Below are positions 1,124 through 14,435 of a stretch of DNA of 23,476 nucleotides, one piece after another. The translations under genes were made by a program, and so were the position numbers. The DNA is from a virus, in IMG/VR virus record IMGVR_UViG_3300028410_000068, positions 1 through 23,476 of that record, one strand, 5' to 3'. How positions within the stretch are numbered: position 1 is the first letter of the stretch; every line of letters starts with the position of its first letter. The notes below the pieces were generated by a model that ran no database searches, was not told where the DNA came from, and was given only the letters and a program-made list of their open reading frames with translations.

Positions 1124-4100
1124 ATGCCAACAGATGAAAGAATTCAGATATCCGAACTACCAGAACTTGACCCTCTAGATTTTGACTCAGAGAACCTACT
1201 TATAGTTAGAAAGATATCTAATAACGTGGACTATAAGTTTAAAGTCTCATCACTAAGGAATCTGATTTCTAATGTTGTTATAGGTAGTGGTAGCGTTATT
1301 ATTGATGATTTGGTGAATTTGATTGTCCCACAAGTAGAGTCCAATTTTGAAGCGTTCTTAGAAGAACAGTTAATAGACTCTCTCCAAAGTAGTGAAGTTC
1401 TTGAGATAGTAAATAATGCCATAAAAGAAGTTACTTCTGCTTTAGAGATTGATGAAAGAAAAGATATTGTAGCTATAGTTAATGGTATCTTTGAGAATGC
1501 CCAAAATAGCAGGGAGCTTGACAGGGCTTTAGACATAGTTAACAAGAAAGTATTTAGTATAGCAGAGAGTTTTATCCCAAGATTGGAGAGAGACTTAGCT
1601 AAAGTAAATGAGGACTTAGAGAATTTAAACTCAGCTGATCTAATTAATCTGCAATCTGACTTAGATACCCTGACAGGAGAACTAAGTACATTAAACACAG
1701 TTACCTTAACAGGTATAGTCAGTGATATCACCGCCCTAAATGAAGCACTAGAAGGGATAGGGGAAGCTGATCTTTCTGGTGTAGAGTCAGATCTCCGAGA
1801 CTTAAGCGATAAGATTGACATCCTAAACGATACAACTATCCCCGATGTTAACACCACCTTATCTGGACTTAATGATGACTTGACTGCATTAGATGATAAG
1901 TTTCCCTTAGCTACAGAGGATCTAGCAGACGGCATTATAACTAATGCTAAAATAGGTTTGAAAGCTATATTAGCAGGTAGCCTAGCAGATGGTACTATAA
2001 CTAGTGCTCAGATGGGACCTAACTCTGTACTAGGAGGTATATTAGCTGACAATGCTGTCTCTGTTAGTAAGATAGTAGATGGAGCTATTACAGCCCTTAA
2101 ATTGGGTAATGGATCTGTTACTAGTGATAAAATTGGCACAGGTGCTGTAAGCAATAATAAAATTATTGATGGAGCTATCACGGAGTTAAAGCTAGGAAAT
2201 TTAGCAGTAACTAATGCTAAGATAGGAGCCAATGCAGTTACTGGAGGGAATATACTTGGGGGTACTATAACTGGTAATAAGATTGCTGGTGAGACCATCA
2301 CAGGTACGTTAATAGCCGCTAATACTATAGTTGGTGGAAATATTCTTAGTGGTAGTGTGAATGCTAATAGATTAGAAGCTAGCACTATCACAGCAGGACT
2401 TCTTGCTTCAGATGCAATCATAGCTAGGCATATCTTAGCTGGAGAGATCACTGGTGATAAGATAGCCGCCAGTACTATCACGGGTGGCAAGATAGTAGCT
2501 AATTCTATAGATGGTGATAGAATAACCACTAATACATTAAATGCTTCTAAGATAGTAGCAGGTAGCATTGGTTCTGACAGGATAGCCGCTAATACTATCA
2601 CAGCGGGGAATATAGCCGCTAATGCAATAGGTGTTAGTGAGTTAAGTGCAAATAGTGTAAACGCAAGTAAAATTGTAGCTGGTAGTATCACTACTGATGA
2701 GATAGCCGCCAATACTATAGAAGCGGGTAATATTAAAGCTAACACTATTACTGGTAGTGAAATCCTAGCTGGTAGTGTTGGTGCTGATAGAATAGTAGCT
2801 AATAGTATAACCACTACACAACTGTCAGCAGGTAATATTAACGGCAATGTAATCACAGCTAACACTATTAATGGTGATAGGGTAATAGCTAACACTATAA
2901 ATGGTAATAGGATAGTAGCAGGAAGTTTAGGAGCTGATAGGATAACAGCTAATAGCTTAACCGCTGGACAAATAGCCGCTAATGCAATAACTACTAGTGA
3001 ACTAGCCAGTAACTCTGTTACAGCAGTAAATATTTTAGCCGGTAACGTGACAGCGGGGAAACTCTCTGCTAATAGTGTCGTAGCAGGGAATATTCAAGCG
3101 GGTCAGATTACAGCTACCAAGATGGCTGTAGATGCAATAGAGACTAGTGCAATTAAGGCTGGGGCTATTGTTGTTGATAAATTAGCCTCCAATAGTATAT
3201 CAGCAATTAAGATACAGTCAGATGCCATAACCTCTGACAAGATTTTAGCTGGGGCAGTAACTGCGATAAAGATACTCTCAGGGTCTATCACTACAGCTAA
3301 GTTAGATGCCTCAGCAGTGACAGCAGATAAGATAGATGTTGGAAGCCTCACAGGTGTTATCCTAACAGGTACAATCCTTAGAACTAAGGCTTCAGGCAAT
3401 AATAGAGTAGTAATTGGTGACACAACATTCCCACTGTGGTTTGGGGATGGTACAGTTGGAACATCAGGTGGTAAGTTCTATGTAACTAATGGTGGTGTCA
3501 TAGTAGCTAAGAATATTGTCATTAGTGGTAATAGTCAATTCGGGGGAACTCTAAACGGGGCTACAGGAACTTTCTCAGGAACTTTGAGCGCCGCTACAGG
3601 ATCATTTAGCGGAGGGATAACTTCTAGCACAATATCTGGGGGTGTAATTAGATCCCCTAGAATGGAGCTAGTAGGGTCTAACTTTATGAAGGTTGAATTG
3701 GCGAATGGATTTGGCCCTGATAACTTATGGTATTGGTTTGGGTCTAAAACTGTAGATGGTAGTGGCAACCCAGTACTGACTAACTTAAGCAAAGCTAATG
3801 CAAAGGAATGGAAAGACACTAATGGAAACGCTTACTTTGGTGGGACATTAAGTGCAGGGACACGATCTGAAGCAATTAGGACTGGTAATAAAAACTTAAA
3901 CCGATCTATCACATTAGGTCCATTTGGTAGTGGAGGGGGAAATAGAGATGTAACTGTGAGTTTTAACTACTCCGCTGGATATAACAGTGGCCCCTGTGAT
4001 AACTCACCAACCCAACCTTCAGGTAAATTAAAACTGTACAGGTCATTTAACGGCTCCAGTTTTAGTCAGATTGGGGGGACTACAAACTTGTCAGGTTCGA

Positions 4101-4294
4101 CCACATCAAACAACTCTCCTTTTGGCAGTGGGTGCTTCACAGAGGAAGAGATGTTTGGGAGTATAACGACTACGGATACCTCAACGACTACAGGTAATGT
4201 CTATTATAAAGCTGAAATTACTGACCAAGTTAGGTATCATAATGTACAAGACATACAAGACCAAGAGCTATCAATAATAAGTGTAGAAGAGTAA
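1124..4294 (+). CDS. Long tail fibre / central fibre protein with decapeptide repeats
   Basis: A 1056-residue fibre. Residues 1-50 (ISELPELDPLDFDSENLLIV) look like a virion-attachment domain. Residues ~55-260 are heptad-rich and probably coiled coil (NLQSDLDTLTGELSTLN and a second similar block). Residues ~269-748 are an uninterrupted array of 10-residue repeats described separately. Residues ~760-850 hold shaft-type turns (GTFSGTLSAATGSFSGG), and the last ~200 residues form a distinct globular part with an LWYWFGSK segment like those in fibre proteins with DUF1983-type regions. It ends in a Gly/Ser/Thr-rich tip followed by an acidic tail. An AGGAG six bases before the ATG supports the start. 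The product should be a trimeric fibre that positions the receptor-binding tip; no enzymatic motif is visible. The large antisense frame opposite the repeats is a codon-bias shadow. Confidence 0.85.
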   Translation: MPTDERIQISELPELDPLDFDSENLLIVRKISNNVDYKFKVSSLRNLISNVVIGSGSVIIDDLVNLIVPQVESNFEAFLEEQLIDSLQSSEVLEIVNNAIKEVTSALEIDERKDIVAIVNGIFENAQNSRELDRALDIVNKKVFSIAESFIPRLERDLAKVNEDLENLNSADLINLQSDLDTLTGELSTLNTVTLTGIVSDITALNEALEGIGEADLSGVESDLRDLSDKIDILNDTTIPDVNTTLSGLNDDLTALDDKFPLATEDLADGIITNAKIGLKAILAGSLADGTITSAQMGPNSVLGGILADNAVSVSKIVDGAITALKLGNGSVTSDKIGTGAVSNNKIIDGAITELKLGNLAVTNAKIGANAVTGGNILGGTITGNKIAGETITGTLIAANTIVGGNILSGSVNANRLEASTITAGLLASDAIIARHILAGEITGDKIAASTITGGKIVANSIDGDRITTNTLNASKIVAGSIGSDRIAANTITAGNIAANAIGVSELSANSVNASKIVAGSITTDEIAANTIEAGNIKANTITGSEILAGSVGADRIVANSITTTQLSAGNINGNVITANTINGDRVIANTINGNRIVAGSLGADRITANSLTAGQIAANAITTSELASNSVTAVNILAGNVTAGKLSANSVVAGNIQAGQITATKMAVDAIETSAIKAGAIVVDKLASNSISAIKIQSDAITSDKILAGAVTAIKILSGSITTAKLDASAVTADKIDVGSLTGVILTGTILRTKASGNNRVVIGDTTFPLWFGDGTVGTSGGKFYVTNGGVIVAKNIVISGNSQFGGTLNGATGTFSGTLSAATGSFSGGITSSTISGGVIRSPRMELVGSNFMKVELANGFGPDNLWYWFGSKTVDGSGNPVLTNLSKANAKEWKDTNGNAYFGGTLSAGTRSEAIRTGNKNLNRSITLGPFGSGGGNRDVTVSFNYSAGYNSGPCDNSPTQPSGKLKLYRSFNGSSFSQIGGTTNLSGSTTSNNSPFGSGCFTEEEMFGSITTTDTSTTTGNVYYKAEITDQVRYHNVQDIQDQELSIISVEE
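1928..3367 (+). repeat. About 48 in-phase 30-bp (decapeptide) tandem repeats inside the long fibre gene
   Basis: Aligned by eye from residue ~269 to ~748, the protein breaks into ten-residue units with no register slip. Typical units are ANTITAGNIA, ANSVNASKIV, AGSITTDEIA and ANTINGDRVI. The pattern is [A/D/S]-[N/G]-[T/S/A]-[I/V/L]-x-x-x-x-[I/L]-x, with buried-type residues at positions 4 and 9. The early units (DGAITALKLG, NGSVTSDKIG) are more divergent and Lys/Gly rich. The regular hydrophobic spacing fits a trimeric beta-helical shaft. DNA identity between units is only moderate, so these are old, diversified repeats with some recent-looking neighbours near 2855-2920. Confidence 0.85.
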
Positions 4295-5883: not shown

Positions 5884-6222
5884 ATGGAAGATAACCCTAG
5901 CTTGTGGAGTCTAGTAATAGCTCTATCGACTTTAGTAGGGGGTGGGGCATGGTTTTGGTACGATAAGAAAGCTAAAGATAAAGAATTTAGTAATCTAAGT
6001 GAGAAAGTAACAAAACTTAGTGATAAGCAGATAGAGCAAGAGAATAAGTTTGTAACAGAAACTCGTACAAGAGAGATCCTCAGGGAAGAGATTGCAGAAC
6101 TAAAGAAGGATATTTCTAGCGTCAAAACCCATGTCTATAGTATTAGTGATAACTTATCTGGCTTAATAGTCGAGATAAGGGTTCTAACTGCTATACAAGA
6201 CTTACTAAAGGATAAACAATGA
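5884..6222 (+). CDS. Membrane-anchored coiled-coil protein in lysis block (holin/antiholin candidate)
   Basis: 112 residues: a single N-terminal membrane segment (about residues 7-25, LWSLVIALSTLVGGGAWFW), a basic stop-transfer YDKKAKDK, then a long amphipathic helix of ~80 residues with heptads (NLSEKVTKLSDKQIEQ, REEIAELKKDISSVK). The positive-inside rule places the coiled coil in the cytoplasm. GAGGAG eight bases upstream fixes the start. It overlaps the response-regulator gene by four bases (ATGA), so the two should be translationally coupled. Small proteins of this shape are frequent beside phage lysis genes and are sometimes annotated as holin-like; I cannot assign one function. One His lies in the helix (VKTHVYS), but there is no histidine-kinase H-box or ATPase domain. 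A membrane tether for the downstream receiver protein is an untested possibility. Confidence 0.6.
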   Translation: MEDNPSLWSLVIALSTLVGGGAWFWYDKKAKDKEFSNLSEKVTKLSDKQIEQENKFVTETRTREILREEIAELKKDISSVKTHVYSISDNLSGLIVEIRVLTAIQDLLKDKQ

Positions 6223-6635
6223 GAGTGTTCCTAATAGATGATGACTTGAAGGTATTAGTCGTCTTATCCAAAATACTGAAGGAGGCTAATATAAGTGGAG
6301 CTTTCTGCGCCTCATCTACAGTAGATGTTGTGGAAAAGATTCTAAATTTCTTACCAGATATTATTATTCTAGATTTGTATATGCCGGAAAAAGATGGCTT
6401 CTGTCTCTATGATGACTTAAGAAAGATTAAGGAGCTTGATCATATTCCGATATTAGCTACGTCCTCCTCAGAGAATATGAAAGATAGATTAAGAACTATT
6501 AACACGGGGTTTAATCAATTTCTGCCTAAGCCTATCACAAAAGAGAGTTTACTCAAGGCGATAAACACAGAGGCGGCGTTAAGTCAGATATCTAGAAGTA
6601 TATCTCAAGCACTCTTAACACTAGAGAGGTATTAA
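6219..6635 (+). CDS. Stand-alone response regulator receiver (CheY-like)
   Basis: A 138-residue receiver domain with every catalytic feature in place: the acidic Mg-binding pair D7-D8 (FLIDDD), phospho-acceptor D52 in ILDLYMPEKDG with the MP and G60 signature, T81 in ILATSS, F98 at the usual Tyr/Phe switch position, and K104 in PKP. The length covers one alpha/beta receiver fold plus a ~15-residue C-terminal helix; there is no DNA-binding or enzymatic output domain. It starts within the stop of the upstream membrane coiled-coil gene (ATGA) with AAGGA six bases upstream, and its stop directly abuts the spanin gene start. It therefore lies inside the lysis operon. Receivers are phosphorylated on Asp by a histidine kinase or small phosphodonor; no kinase is visible nearby. 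It could sense or divert host two-component signalling. The family call is firm, the role is not. Confidence 0.93.
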   Translation: MRVFLIDDDLKVLVVLSKILKEANISGAFCASSTVDVVEKILNFLPDIIILDLYMPEKDGFCLYDDLRKIKELDHIPILATSSSENMKDRLRTINTGFNQFLPKPITKESLLKAINTEAALSQISRSISQALLTLERY

Positions 6636-8206: not shown

Positions 8207-8803
8207 TTATTCAACCTCCACTAATGAGATAACATAGTCTATAGCATCTATGGCATAGACATAATCATCATGATCTACTTTAAAGTGAGGTTCTAGTGTC
8301 TCTACCCAAGCCAAGTACTCGTAGCTCTCATCATCTCCAAACTTTCCTTTCAAAAACCCATTTAGACGATTAGCCCTAGAGATGCAATCCTCATCAAATA
8401 ATGCCCAGAATAAATCATCATCTAGCCCAGTGAAATCCTCTTGAAAACAACCAAAACTAGTATCCTTAGTATTCTTCAACAATCTTAAATCAAAATCCGC
8501 ATCTAAATATAGCCCCATCGAGTTAAAGAAACTATCACTAGCACACCAACCTAACATACAGCAACTATACCCACAGTCCTCATTTAGAGTATCCTTGTAA
8601 TCTTCATATCTATTTAGTGCAGATGGTATCTCTTTGTTACCCTTTTCCTCCCACATTGGCTTAAGTGACTCTCCCCAATACGACATATCTAATTTCTTCC
8701 CTGCAATATTAGCAGAAACCATAACTCTCTTAACTTCATTTAGGAAGTCAACAGGGTGTAATTGCTCTCCTGTCCAAGGGGTGATCTTAGTTACTTCTTT
8801 CAT
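8207..8803 (-). CDS. Uncharacterised phage protein with CGxxCCxxGW signature
   Basis: A 198-residue acidic soluble protein. The segment DCGYSCCMLGWCASDSFF resembles the CG(T/S)xxCxxGW signature of a widespread, uncharacterised group of phage proteins, in which it is typically followed by an F/GL-rich strand and then a segment like FTGLDDDLFWALF, also present here around residue 125. The conserved cysteines could bind a metal or stabilise the fold; neither is established. The start overlaps the upstream stop (ATGA), and AAGGAG lies eight bases upstream. It belongs to the short operon driven by the promoter at 9327-9355. Function unknown. Confidence 0.7.
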   Translation of the reverse strand: MKEVTKITPWTGEQLHPVDFLNEVKRVMVSANIAGKKLDMSYWGESLKPMWEEKGNKEIPSALNRYEDYKDTLNEDCGYSCCMLGWCASDSFFNSMGLYLDADFDLRLLKNTKDTSFGCFQEDFTGLDDDLFWALFDEDCISRANRLNGFLKGKFGDDESYEYLAWVETLEPHFKVDHDDYVYAIDAIDYVISLVEVE

Positions 8804-9267
8804 AAATTACTCTCCTTATATGTAGCTTCTAGTTTAGCGATTTTATCTTCAAAGGCTTTGTTTGCTTCTAATGCCTGTAACTTTAACTCATTTATCTGAC
8901 GTTGTAAAGGGGTATCTTCAGTAACAATGCAATCTGGATCTACTCTGTAAGTTATCTTATTAGTCAACACTGGCATAGGTATTGTTCTCCAATTAATACC
9001 ATCCTCACTAAATTGTATTCTAGCTCCCTTGAAGCCCTCCTTCAGTGCATCTACATCAGGGTGAGAGATAGGGGGATATTTATATTTAACCTCTTCAACT
9101 TCTTTACCTGCTAGTTTGAAATTATCAGAGTTATGTTTTCCAATGTAACCCTCCAGAGTAAGTTGGTGAAAGTAACAGACCTCCACCACAGAAATATCTC
9201 CACGTCTCATGCCACCATATGTACCCCAGATTCTCTGAACCCTATCCCCTACTTTAAATTGACTCAT
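8800..9267 (-). CDS. Uncharacterised protein, paralogue of the 19787-20221 product
   Basis: A 155-residue protein beginning MSQFKVGDRVQRIWG. The GTG nine bases further upstream falls inside the ribosome site, so I take the ATG at 9267, which has GAGGAG eight bases upstream. Residues 1-50 form a beta-rich KOW/SH3-like strand set (VGDRV, then GDISVVEVCYF). The middle part has the pattern YPP-x(n)-F/G-x-W-x(n)-ITYRVDPDCIV, and the last ~35 residues are a charged helix (QINELKLQALEANKAFEDKIAKLE). The same order (KVGDWV, NPPREEY, GVWLDK, NYRINPDSIL, charged helix) appears in the protein at 19787-20221, so the two are probably duplicates. It is the first gene after the terminator/promoter element. 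Function unknown. Confidence 0.75.
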   Translation of the reverse strand: MSQFKVGDRVQRIWGTYGGMRRGDISVVEVCYFHQLTLEGYIGKHNSDNFKLAGKEVEEVKYKYPPISHPDVDALKEGFKGARIQFSEDGINWRTIPMPVLTNKITYRVDPDCIVTEDTPLQRQINELKLQALEANKAFEDKIAKLEATYKESNL

Positions 9268-9290
9268 AAATAACACTCCTCATATAAATT

Positions 9291-9340
9291 AAACAAAAAA
9301 AAACTCCCTAACCACTCAATGAGAGAAGTATAGGGAGTTT
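9291..9340 (-). terminator. Intrinsic terminator containing a promoter (site 1)
   Basis: On the minus strand AAACTCCCTA (9340-9331) pairs exactly with TAGGGAGTTT (9310-9301) across a 20-base loop, and is followed at once by TTTTTTGTTT (9300-9291). A 10-bp stem plus a U-run is a standard intrinsic terminator for RNA arriving from the upstream genes (9363 and beyond). The 5' arm doubles as promoter spacer; see the promoter entry. Confidence 0.85.
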
Positions 9341-9355
9341 AGTATTCTAAGTCAA
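9327..9355 (-). promoter_or_regulatory. Sigma70-type promoter nested in terminator (site 1)
   Basis: TTGACT (9355-9350), a 17-bp spacer, then TATACT (9332-9327): five of six and five of six consensus bases at ideal spacing. Initiation about seven bases further would be near 9320, inside the terminator loop. The transcript would therefore lack the 5' arm (9340-9331) and could not fold the terminator. It would drive the genes from 9267 down to 7942. The 5' leader would be about 53 bases. Confidence 0.75.
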
Positions 9356-9362
9356 GATATTT

Positions 9363-9590
9363 TTAATCTTTATTTTTAAAGTGTATGATTGTTTTATTAT
9401 TCTTCCGTACAAAATAAGAGACACCTAAGACAAGGAAATATACTATAACTGAGACAAGGGTCATTAATCCAAATACGGTCCCAAAGAATACCTCATCTGT
9501 AGTTAGTCTACCTCCCTCTACTTTAGCCACTCCCAGTGTAGCTACAAATCCCGCCAATACCCATATCATCACACCTAATAAGATTTCCAC
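9363..9590 (-). CDS. Small two-helix membrane protein, unknown
   Basis: A 75-residue protein with two hydrophobic segments: about residues 3-22 (ILLGVMIWVLAGFVATLGVA) and 37-62 (FGTVFGLMTLVSVIVYFLVLGVSYFV), joined by a short polar loop, with a basic C-terminus (RKNNKTIIHFKNKD). It starts with GTG, whose G is the last base of the upstream TAG, with AAGGG four bases before; this suggests re-initiation by ribosomes finishing the GHKL-like gene. It is the last gene before terminator site 1. No family recognised; it could be an inner-membrane peptide affecting superinfection or the host envelope, but nothing in the sequence shows that. Confidence 0.7.
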   Translation of the reverse strand: MEILLGVMIWVLAGFVATLGVAKVEGGRLTTDEVFFGTVFGLMTLVSVIVYFLVLGVSYFVRKNNKTIIHFKNKD

Positions 9591-10597
9591 TAGCCCTTAA
9601 CATTCCAACGGAGGTCTTTAAGTTTGACTTCTCTTAAGTTAACTTGATTACCACTACTAGCTAAAATAGACTCATCAAGCATATCTACCCGAAATGAGTT
9701 GTGAATTTCAATAGCCGCCGCAACTTCTCCCTCTAGCAGTATCTGTTGGATAATCATATTATCTTCAGCTAAGTCTGTTGTAATCTTTTCAGAGAATACT
9801 AGAGAGTCCACAGCATCTAAACCTTTACTATCATCAAATAATTCTACTGTTACTGTTTTACGTGTTGTCATGTTTATATTTCCTTTTTGGTCGTTTAAAT
9901 TAATATCACTAACTTCTGTATCTGCATTGCAATAATCAAAGTACTCATCCCAACCCTCCACACTCTGTCTGTCACGATTAAGTTTTAACTTAGATGGGTT
10001 AAAGTCATAACTGTATTCTAATTCTGTCTCTGATACCCAAATACCCCCAACATAGATATTACAACACCGCTCAAGAAGTATTCTACCATTTTCCGTTGCT
10101 ATAACTTTGCCAACAGATTCCTCGGATTGCATGTACAAACATCTGTCCTGAATTTGGTCAAACATGTCTTGGTTTATATCATGTATGGCAATTGTAAAGT
10201 CATCACTGCTCTTAAAGGTATCTTGGTATTCATGTATAGCTAAGAAATTAGCATCAAAATCCTCGGAGTGTTCAAACTTAGGTATCCACTGTTTTGAGCC
10301 ATTATAGATAATAACTTCATGCCCCTCCCTAAGCAATACACCCATACTAACGACTAAACCCTCTCCATGTCTACCAACTGATTCTTCTTTACCTCTATTC
10401 TCAGAGACTCCCATTAATAAGTATTTAGCATCTAAGGTAAAGTTTTTAGTAGTTAGGACTAAGGTGTTAGATGAGTAATCCCACTCAAAAGGATTGTCAG
10501 AGTCTAGTGCATTAGTCACAAATTCCCTTACTCCATCTACTGCTGACCATGATAGGCAATATTGATCTGATATCATGGTGTTGTATACTTTATTCAT
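9590..10597 (-). CDS. GHKL-ATPase-like phage protein with C-terminal extension
   Basis: 335 residues. The N-terminal ~110 residues look like the ATP-binding fold of the GHKL group (MutL, Hsp90, histidine kinase, T4 rIIA): N-box-like E25-x-x-x-N29-A30-x-D32 in REFVTNALDSDN, then LLMGVSENRG and the lid glycines VGRHGEGL (74-81). The DxGxG adenine-binding motif expected near residue 50 is absent (TKNFTL), as in a phage subgroup I recall with NTxL at that place, so ATP binding is possible but unproven. Residues ~110-225 may be a transducer-like domain. From M243 (MTTRKTVTVELFDD) begins a 93-residue module with its own ribosome site. GAGGAG before the ATG at 10597 supports the start. The role in infection is unknown. 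Confidence 0.65.
   Translation of the reverse strand: MNKVYNTMISDQYCLSWSAVDGVREFVTNALDSDNPFEWDYSSNTLVLTTKNFTLDAKYLLMGVSENRGKEESVGRHGEGLVVSMGVLLREGHEVIIYNGSKQWIPKFEHSEDFDANFLAIHEYQDTFKSSDDFTIAIHDINQDMFDQIQDRCLYMQSEESVGKVIATENGRILLERCCNIYVGGIWVSETELEYSYDFNPSKLKLNRDRQSVEGWDEYFDYCNADTEVSDINLNDQKGNINMTTRKTVTVELFDDSKGLDAVDSLVFSEKITTDLAEDNMIIQQILLEGEVAAAIEIHNSFRVDMLDESILASSGNQVNLREVKLKDLRWNVKG
9869..9885 (-). promoter_or_regulatory. Internal ribosome-binding site and start codon within the GHKL-like gene
   Basis: AAGGA (9885-9881) is followed after nine bases by ATG (9871-9869), in frame with the GHKL-like gene. Translation from here would give a separate 93-residue protein covering the C-terminal module. 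The spacing is like that of the true starts in this window. Confidence 0.5.
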
Positions 10598-12460: not shown

Positions 12461-13075
12461 TTAATTATCAAACCAAAAAACAATTCTAAAATCATCCATA
12501 TCTTTTTCATCAATATCGTTAGGGTAGTACTTACGGAATCTTTTACACATAGCAATGTAAAGCCCTTGCAGTGGGTTTTCTCCAGTTCGTTCCCAACTTC
12601 TTCTTACATATGTCTTATCGCTAGTCCCTTGACACCATGAGTCAGGTTTAATATTACAATAATCTAAATCATCAGCCTGTTTTTGGCTTATTAACCCTGT
12701 AACTTTTACAGGCTCAACAGGCTCATTTAAATCTATAAATCTTTTTACGTCCCTCAATGTAACAAAGCTATGTGAATGCCCATCACAATCTATTTCATCG
12801 CACTCACGCTTAACTAATTCAGTTGCATCATCAGGTATACCCCTTGGCTCAGATATTTTAGGCGATAATTCTGTATAATCCCTAACCCCGCATAAGGACG
12901 TAAACATAAAGTAATTTCTATCGCCAAATAATTCAACAAGATTGTACTCACGCTCATCATCCCAGCCATCCTTGCGGTAATAAGGATTTAACTCAAAGTG
13001 ATCAGCAGATACCCATAATCTACTGCCATTAATAACTACACTTTCTTCGCAAAACATATGTATATCACATCCCAT
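12461..13075 (-). CDS. Uncharacterised phage MGCDIH-family protein
   Basis: A 204-residue soluble protein beginning MGCDIHMFCEE. Start at the second ATG (13075): AGGAG is seven bases upstream of it but only two from the ATG at 13081, and MGCDIH is the usual N-terminus of this family in phages and some bacteria. Other family-typical parts are LWVSADHFELNP, ELFGDRNYFMFTSLCGVRDY, a RGIPDDATELVKRE segment and DCDGHSHSFVTLRDVKRF. Cys3-Asp4-His6 and the later DGHSHS cluster suggest a metal site, but no activity has been established that I know of. It is the first gene downstream of terminator/promoter site 2, so it heads an operon running to 9363. Confidence 0.8.
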   Translation of the reverse strand: MGCDIHMFCEESVVINGSRLWVSADHFELNPYYRKDGWDDEREYNLVELFGDRNYFMFTSLCGVRDYTELSPKISEPRGIPDDATELVKRECDEIDCDGHSHSFVTLRDVKRFIDLNEPVEPVKVTGLISQKQADDLDYCNIKPDSWCQGTSDKTYVRRSWERTGENPLQGLYIAMCKRFRKYYPNDIDEKDMDDFRIVFWFDN

Positions 13076-13090
13076 CTTCATTCTCCTTAA

Positions 13091-13140
13091 ACAAAAAAAA
13101 ACCCCTAAACCAAACCAATAAAGGAATGATATAGGAGTTT
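13091..13140 (-). terminator. Intrinsic terminator containing a promoter (site 2)
   Basis: On the minus strand AAACTCCTA (13140-13132) pairs with TAGGGGTTT (13107-13099; one G-U pair) over a 24-base loop, and a run of T follows (13101-13093). It would stop RNA from the nrdA/nrdB and 52-residue-peptide genes. Arm sequence, spacing and U-run closely match site 1 at 9291-9340. Confidence 0.8.
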
Positions 13141-13154
13141 TATATTTATGTCAA
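13126..13154 (-). promoter_or_regulatory. Sigma70-type promoter nested in terminator (site 2)
   Basis: TTGACA (13154-13149), exactly 17 bp of spacer, then TATCAT (13131-13126). The -35 is a perfect consensus and the -10 has five of six bases. Initiation near 13119 would fall in the terminator loop, leaving out the 5' arm. The predicted leader to the ATG at 13075 is about 44 bases. It would drive the operon from 13075 toward 9363. Confidence 0.8.
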
Positions 13155-13167
13155 TGTTATTTTAAGG

Positions 13168-13326
13168 TTATCTTAGTTCTGTCTTCTTTTTATCTCCTGT
13201 CACAGGCTCATCAGGGCTTGACCCTTTTGAGCCACTCTTTTTTGATTTCCTTTTAGTATTGCCCCAGTAGGCTAGTCCAACTAAAAGTAGCACCACTAGT
13301 ATTACACCACCTAATTCTTCCATCAT
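13168..13326 (-). CDS. 52-residue single-helix membrane protein
   Basis: A gene below usual ORF cut-offs in the space between nrdB and promoter site 2. It begins MMEELGGVILVVLLLVGLAY, one clear membrane helix (residues ~6-22), followed by a very basic Lys/Ser segment (NTKRKSKKSGSKGSSP) and a mixed-charge tail (TGDKKKTELR). GAGG lies five bases before the ATG at 13326; a second ATG follows directly. The stop is 14 bases upstream of the -35 of site 2. Topology should be N-out, C-in. Function unknown. Other frames here are not supported. Confidence 0.65.
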   Translation of the reverse strand: MMEELGGVILVVLLLVGLAYWGNTKRKSKKSGSKGSSPDEPVTGDKKKTELR

Positions 13327-13430: not shown

Positions 13431-14435
13431 TTAGCCACTGTTAGCTAAATATTTTTCATACTTACTATAATCGACTTCACCTGATAGTTTAGCATGGCTA
13501 TAGCCTGTAACCTTACTCTCAAAGAAGTTGGTATGAGCTTGAGCTGTCAGTAAGTAATCTATCCACTCTAAGGGGTTCTCACATTCCTCGTGTGTTAAGT
13601 CAAGCTGTTGTAGCCTTAGATTACCTAAGTACTTAATAAAGCCCTTAGCCTCAGGTAGAGTTAAATCCTCTTGGTCTCCCATCTCAAATACAAGCTCAAG
13701 AAACTTACATTCAGCATCTACGTAGCTCTGAACTAAGTCCTCTACAAAACTATCTAGTTCCCTAGCTTCATCGAAATTTAAGCTTTGCCTAATAGTAAGG
13801 TAAACTCTGATATTCTTATCAACATGGTCAGCTTCATCTTTTAAGCTCCATTCGTTAACACTATTAAAATTACTTACTAGTCCAAACCTTCTTAGGTTAA
13901 GTAGACAAGCGAAAGCACCAAACAATGAAATACCTTCACCTAGGAATATGACAGCCAACTGCTTACAGAAGTTTAAGGGTATATCTAGATCACCTACCCC
14001 TTGAGCCAAGATATCTATTTTATCTTGCATCTCTTTGTAATTTTTAAACTCACTCCAATCACTATTACTAAAACCAAATGTTTCAGCGGCTAAGGCGTAA
14101 GCTCTTTGATGAGTAACCTCTCTAGCCGCAAAAGTCATCCACATAGTTCTAATTTCATTATTCTTTACATGATAGATAATCTTAGAGTAGCCTGTACCCA
14201 CTTGTACATCCATTTCTGTAAACAACATTAGTAATTTATCTATTAGATTCTTATTACTCTCATGGCTAACATTCTTTGTAGCTAACCCACCTTCAGTATT
14301 GTACTGCCTAAGGTCATCCATAAGGTCTACTTGACCCTCATTCCAGTTCATATCTATTCTATGAGTTTTCTCGGCGGCAACTGCCCACTCATAGTGGAAT
14401 GGTCTATAAGATTTATTCTCTTCAAATACTTTCAC
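13431..14435 (-). CDS. nrdB: Ribonucleoside-diphosphate reductase beta subunit
   Basis: The 334-residue radical-generating subunit of class I ribonucleotide reductase. The di-metal ligands and radical Tyr can be read off: D76 (TEMDVQVG), E106 and H109 in AREVTHQRAY, Y113 as the radical Tyr, E167 (FLGEGISLF), and E201/H204 in LKDEADHV. The C-terminus ends KYEKYLANSG; this tail would dock to NrdA. With NrdA it reduces ribonucleotides to deoxyribonucleotides in the cytoplasm for phage DNA synthesis. Start is GTG at 14435, overlapping the nrdA TAG (TAGTG), with AGGA about eleven bases upstream, so translation probably depends on coupling. Length is close to the usual 320-380. No thioredoxin or glutaredoxin gene was seen in the window. 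Confidence 0.95.
   Translation of the reverse strand: MKVFEENKSYRPFHYEWAVAAEKTHRIDMNWNEGQVDLMDDLRQYNTEGGLATKNVSHESNKNLIDKLLMLFTEMDVQVGTGYSKIIYHVKNNEIRTMWMTFAAREVTHQRAYALAAETFGFSNSDWSEFKNYKEMQDKIDILAQGVGDLDIPLNFCKQLAVIFLGEGISLFGAFACLLNLRRFGLVSNFNSVNEWSLKDEADHVDKNIRVYLTIRQSLNFDEARELDSFVEDLVQSYVDAECKFLELVFEMGDQEDLTLPEAKGFIKYLGNLRLQQLDLTHEECENPLEWIDYLLTAQAHTNFFESKVTGYSHAKLSGEVDYSKYEKYLANSG

Follow-up and report, generated by a model that had tools for sequence, protein, structure and literature searches.

The virus record IMGVR_UViG_3300028410_000068, analysed here over its whole length of 23,476 bases (the window), is a fragment of a myophage genome, and the closest named relatives of its NrdA are found in the Rheinheimera Barba phages (Barbavirus), at 67.7% over the aligned parts. 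Structural genes occupy the plus strand as far as about 7.9 kb; the minus strand bears a long gene series that runs from 23.4 down to 7.9 kb. This series contains nrdB, which encodes the small chain of ribonucleotide reductase (13431-14435, minus strand) and whose 3' boundary serves below as the point of comparison across relatives, followed by a 52-aa ORF (13168-13326, minus strand) that ends the nrdA/nrdB-side unit. Within this ORF, the opposite strand (13205-13233, plus strand) bears another strong hairpin, which has a T-run. Immediately 3' of the ORF lies the stretch 13,091-13,154, here called site 2, which separates the nrdA/nrdB-side genes from the gene 12461-13081 (minus strand, 206 aa, phrog_10141), the putative first gene of a restarted unit. 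A second stretch, site 1, is located 5' of a gene that starts at 9267 (8800-9267, minus strand, phrog_13152); for this gene, the ATG at 9267 is favoured over the listed GTG at 9276, because the Shine-Dalgarno sequence is then spaced normally. No close homolog of the gene 12461-13081 was present in the viral contigs searched, and a search for phage matches to the gene that follows site 1 gave none.

In site 2, a sigma-70-type promoter and a terminator-type hairpin share the same bases of the minus strand. The −35 hexamer TTGACA (13149-13154) and the −10 hexamer TATCAT (13126-13131) are separated by a spacer of 17 and match the consensus in 11 of 12 positions, and the −10 hexamer falls within the upper part of the 5' side of a hairpin predicted for read-through RNA, AAAACTCCTA...TAGGGGTTTT (13098-13141). 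This hairpin has a stability of about −18.5 to −18.7 kcal/mol (z = −6.2 against shuffles), its lower stem AAAACTCCTA/TAGGGGTTTT comprises 10 bp including one U.G pair, and it runs into nine U (13093-13101). From the position of the −10 hexamer, transcription is predicted to start 7 nt past it at A13119, in the loop of the hairpin. The Shine-Dalgarno sequence AAGGAG (13083-13088) is not part of the hairpin, and the start codon is the ATG at 13081. The earlier note had described TTGACA, 17 bp and TATCAT overlapping the 5' arm of a hairpin with a U-run, and each of these features was found in its place on the minus strand.

Site 1 (9355-9295, minus strand) has the same layout, which bears out the claim of a second site about 3.8 kb away that shares the plan. 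It consists of TTGACT (9350-9355) and TATACT (9327-9332) with a spacer of 17 and 10 of 12 consensus matches, the hairpin AAACTCCCTA...TAGGGAGTTT (9301-9340; about −20 kcal/mol, calculated as −20.1), a run of nine U (9295-9303), a predicted start at A9320 in the loop, and the Shine-Dalgarno sequence GAGGAG (9276-9281) downstream of the hairpin. A distance of 45-55 bases to the start codon had been proposed for both sites; site 2 agrees with this, with 45 bases from the −10 hexamer to the start codon, but the value for site 1 is 60. Both sites carry sigma-70 hexamers within the spacing range of 16-18 bp, and both have the stable hairpin directly before a U-run that characterizes intrinsic terminators in sequence; in both, the 5' side of the hairpin is made up of the promoter spacer together with the −10 hexamer. 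A standard terminator scan detected neither site 1 nor site 2, because their loops are longer than 8 bases, and no Rfam family matched in the window at gathering score.

Relation of the two copies and chance expectation

Sites 1 and 2 have in common 16 identical bases at the U-run, GTTTTTTTTTGTTTAA, and most of the stem, and they differ in the spacing of the arms. As so much sequence is common to both, they are probably two copies of a single cassette, and the view of the earlier note that they represent two independent matches does not hold. Its statement that chance is an unlikely origin is nevertheless well supported, since a structural detector, with thresholds set by the analyst, finds 2 elements in the window, whereas 200 dinucleotide shuffles gave 0.005 on average and never more than 1. 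A composite pattern likewise gives 2 matches in the window and none in 100 shuffles, and none of 200 shuffles yielded hairpins as stable as those of the two sites. The window contains 14 promoter-like sites with at least 10 of 12 matches, and only in sites 1 and 2 does the spacer pair best with its own leader.

An origin by chance in A/T-rich DNA is ruled out by these shuffles together with a control pattern in which the −35 core was reversed. This control pattern has 8 viral matches, which fold weakly (−3.5 to −11.6 kcal/mol) with the exception of one (L014) that carries a true TTGACA. A looser count of arm pairing failed to separate this control and carried no weight. When a different stem, AACCC...GGG, was used as a probe, just 4 of its 23 matches were nested, so that most such matches are attributable to chance.

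Recurrence in relatives and in a marine gene family

The long contigs of the NrdA relatives G003-G007 and the phage Barba9A were compared with the window. Under a fixed criterion, 5 of the 46 terminator hairpins in this Barbavirus-like group, window included, contain a nested promoter, against a mean of 0.9 at the eight shifted offsets that served as control. The stems differ from case to case, and their self-complementarity is kept: the element of G005 has the stem AACCCTATAGATC/GGTCTATAGGGTT, different from that of the window, and the element of Barba9A, located between the ClpP and Dam genes, has the unrelated stem TGCCCGATC/GGTCGGGCA (115 Barba records match this stretch, all at 99% or more). 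Among the Rheinheimera Barba phages, MK719715 carries the element of the ClpP-Dam interval at 38372-38341. In G007, the hairpin contains a C/A mismatch and folds weakly, at −11 kcal/mol. Arms that vary freely while the hexamers are kept, which had been named as an outcome that would contradict a functional link, were not seen; the arms vary, yet stay complementary and in register with the promoter. The expectation of a module used repeatedly in this genome is supported, as the plan recurs in relatives with other stems, but the repetition amounts to two elements in 23.5 kb, and the comparison with related phages, which had also been suggested, found none or one in each of the relatives' contigs and the genome searched.

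Two elements, at L115:17533 in G005 and L125:12771 in G007, are nearly identical and flanked by different genes, which suggests a portable cassette that may have moved as a unit. The arrangement is not general, as no nested case was found by the main criterion among 102 hairpins of Felix O1, T5, rV5, T4 (first 100 kb) and lambda, which were picked by name and are not a random sample. Two edge-overlapping cases appeared in Felix O1 once the search window was widened.

The boundary after nrdB can be compared directly. In the window, the nrdB stop codon is followed by the 52-aa ORF and then by the nested site 2; in G007, a nested element follows at once; in G005, there is a terminator and directly thereafter TTGACA-17-TATACT in tandem; and in G004, TTGACA-17-CACAAT overlaps the edge of a hairpin with a short U-run. 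G006 has a promoter-like site at this position, and a significant hairpin was not found there. All of these different layouts, and that of L054 described below, seem to open a new unit, and the majority of them also appear to block read-through. Such variety is expected if selection acts on blocking read-through and starting anew, and we regard this comparison as the strongest comparative argument for a function. It also agrees with the earlier reading of the element as a regulatory module, since the element is found at transcription-unit boundaries and one relative has a tandem terminator and promoter at the very same boundary. In a further contig, L054, the region after nrdB (from 8909) contains a sigma-70-type promoter nested in a 14-bp hairpin of −20 kcal/mol that covers the Shine-Dalgarno sequence, and thus a trap resembling that of T4 gene e in a relative of the window phage; by eye, the ORF preceding it is glutaredoxin-like.

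Beyond these relatives, the pattern TTGAC-AACTCC-GGNGT7 matched 51 viral contigs, of which 46 show pairing between the arms together with a −10 hexamer in register, a count that is inflated by shared ancestry. Most of the 51 matches precede one marine phage gene family (MTM..., with a C-terminal part that matches phrog_27048). The orthologs of this family were also gathered by protein in order to remove selection on the upstream pattern, and a promoter-like site was then found in 40 of 69 distinct upstream regions. The family couples TTGACA-17-TATAAT to hairpins of the nested type: among 21 non-redundant strong promoters, the spacer scores on average −10.8 against its own leader and −7.2 (sd 0.6) against the leaders of others, a preference that 20,000 permutations never reached. 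Strong pairing, through stems unrelated to one another, is present in about 10 of the 21 upstream regions. In the contigs L169-L248, the promoter preceding the MTM... gene has a spacer that pairs, via many unrelated stems, with the Shine-Dalgarno region. The 3' arm in the marine family usually covers the Shine-Dalgarno sequence and a U-run is present in a subset only, so that the predicted logic is that of T4 gene e with a sigma-70-type promoter. As the U-run is mostly absent, the family backs the nested hairpin and not the terminator part of the proposal. In bacterial genomes, the corresponding pattern has 37 matches with paired arms in 28, and in 3 of these the −10 hexamer is in register; promoter and hairpin are rarely coupled there.

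Relation to known composite elements

Promoter-early stem-loops (PeSLs) of T4-like phages have reportedly been described by Arbiol et al. in 2010 and by Comeau et al. Phages of this kind that bear PeSLs include RB49, phi1, nt-1 and PST. The window elements resemble PeSLs as small intergenic cassettes in which a stem-loop terminator is joined to a strong sigma-70-like promoter and which are repeated in varied gene contexts, and judged by sequence the composite of both parts between genes is present in the window. The window promoter is positioned inside the hairpin, however, and does not follow it in the tandem order that prevails in RB49, where the clear cases in about 100 kb read are mostly a terminator and then a promoter, with the −10 hexamer 60 to 74 bases past the start of the hairpin. 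Furthermore, the window phage is Barbavirus-like and not a T4-like myovirus. PeSLs are described as composite promoter-terminator cassettes that mediate shuffling in the passage of PMC4503421 that refers to its refs 36 and 37; what the present analysis observed in this respect is one near-identical element that stands between different genes in G005 and G007. The exceptions to the tandem order in RB49 (L249) are two promoter/hairpin overlaps on the minus strand, at 3179 and 9459, and in one of them the −10 hexamer lies in the hairpin loop.

In the T4 genes e, soc, 49 and I-TevI, a hairpin silences the early read-through RNA, and for gene e, transcripts from late promoters immediately upstream do not contain the 5' portion of the hairpin and are well translated (PMC3014915). 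The upstream sequences of e and soc were folded in the present analysis for comparison. The likeness lies in a promoter in or over the 5' strand of the hairpin, such that RNA from upstream folds and local RNA does not, and with the predicted starts this geometry is found in the window. The T4 hairpins, however, are combined with late promoters (TATAAATA) and trap the ribosome-binding site, whereas the window elements have a sigma-70-type promoter with a −35 hexamer, nine U after the hairpin and a free Shine-Dalgarno sequence. At its operon boundaries, T5 (annotation of AY543070) also combines a terminator with a promoter of like orientation, but its promoter hexamers are downstream of the hairpin and not within it. 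With intrinsic (Rho-independent) terminators the elements share the stable hairpin that is directly followed by nine U, and they differ in containing a complete promoter whose predicted start removes the 5' arm. Judged on the features tested, the window element thus comes closest to PeSLs in its make-up and to T4 e in its geometry, and appears to be a full member of neither. It is best regarded as a new variation on the PeSL cassettes and the e/soc/49 hairpins.

The proposed stop-and-restart mechanism and alternatives to it

The folding energies of the two read-through RNAs are −21.6 and −27.2 kcal/mol, and the terminator hairpin forms their main helix; the RNAs that begin at the predicted starts fold at −6.6 and −5.7 kcal/mol without it. 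Given this low, hairpin-free folding of the local RNAs, a polymerase arriving from upstream should terminate and local transcripts should be immune. For site 2, a polymerase coming from the nrd side would copy the whole palindrome and the nine U, so that the hairpin would form and transcription would terminate. A host-type sigma-70 polymerase would initiate at the nested promoter at about A13119, within the loop, and the resulting RNA, devoid of the 5' arm, would form no terminator, pass the nine U and allow expression of the next operon. One stretch of DNA would thereby halt foreign RNA and launch new RNA, with the point of initiation alone deciding between the two. We therefore favour, with a probability of about 0.72, the reading that site 2 compactly stops and restarts transcription where two units of the same direction adjoin in a Barbavirus-like myophage; the overlap of the sequences, the predicted fold and the recurrence of the plan are demonstrated, and from them we infer the terminating and initiating activities and their timing. 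Against this reading stand the imperfect −10 hexamers of some copies (TATCAT, CATACT), and late in infection the window phage may also use another RNA polymerase specificity.

The hairpin and the nine U are the strongest features of the element, and it could accordingly be an ordinary terminator in which termination alone is functional and the promoter resemblance arises by chance from A/T-rich surroundings, as is mostly the case for the bacterial matches, with their 28 paired arms, 3 in-register −10 hexamers and chance TTGACA. This is unlikely in view of the near-consensus hexamers, which are exactly 17 bp apart in each copy, the Shine-Dalgarno sequence and gene start directly 3' of the element, the recurrence of the nested plan with other stems in relatives, and the in-register −10 hexamer in 46 of 51 viral matches. 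The opposite simplification, an ordinary promoter whose inverted repeat is the operator of a dimeric DNA-binding repressor with an incidental RNA hairpin, would explain why two arms flank the start and why both window copies have the arm sequence in common, as operator copies do. We consider it quite improbable, since the arm spacing is not equal between the copies, the arm sequences of relatives are wholly changed with complementarity kept, and in the terminator forms the 3' arm is directly adjoined by a U-run.

A hairpin that serves mainly to conceal the next gene's start site in read-through RNA and does not terminate has a precedent in T4 gene e (PMC3014915), and many marine orthologs as well as L054 look that way, with the Shine-Dalgarno sequence in the 3' arm and no U-run. 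At both window sites, however, the Shine-Dalgarno sequence is outside the hairpin (13088-13083 and 9281-9276) and nine U follow the stem, so translational trapping should not be the main effect there, and we give this explanation little credence for the window. Finally, the terminator-promoter block could be kept mainly as a homology patch for gene shuffling, as was proposed for PeSLs, with transcription control being secondary. The near-identical elements between different genes in G005 and G007 and the two similar copies within the window speak for such a role; but only one such near-identical pair was seen, the stems diverge between lineages, for which a pure homology patch has no need, and complementarity, U-run, hexamers and Shine-Dalgarno sequence are retained as a working set, which makes this role very unlikely to be the principal one.

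The stop-and-restart reading can be extended, tentatively and with more doubt than confidence, to a distinct convergent design in unrelated phage lineages (Barbavirus-like phages, the marine gene family and RB49), in which a sigma-70 promoter is interleaved with the 5' arm of a hairpin in terminator and Shine-Dalgarno-trap forms and silencing of the RNA depends solely on where it is initiated. For the terminator form, a polymerase set free at the U-run may be reused at the promoter that overlaps it, which would couple the end of one operon to the start of the next. It has been reported that a polymerase can stay on the DNA after termination and then re-initiate nearby (PMC6978380); such retention and re-initiation at the window element is speculation. 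The element illustrates how the end of one operon and the beginning of another can share 60 bases of a compact genome, and different phages have kept this arrangement while its letters changed. If the mechanism is confirmed, such sites would be misread by standard annotation, in which promoters and terminators are scored separately. The element would then also provide a natural template for the insulated expression of genes and a system in which the recycling of polymerase after termination could be studied.

Some other genes of the window are also worth recording. On the plus strand, the structural-side protein of 1056 aa encoded at 1124-4294 contains a long array of diverged repeats, with units at multiples of 30 nt, and is probably a tail fibre. 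A 138-aa ORF (6219-6635, plus strand) appears by eye to encode a CheY-type response-regulator receiver domain, which is unusual among phage lysis-region genes. The 335-aa protein encoded at 9590-10597 on the minus strand matches phrog_6077 and phage annotations as 'histidine kinase-like ATPase', and its C-terminal part matches another family, phrog_17203.
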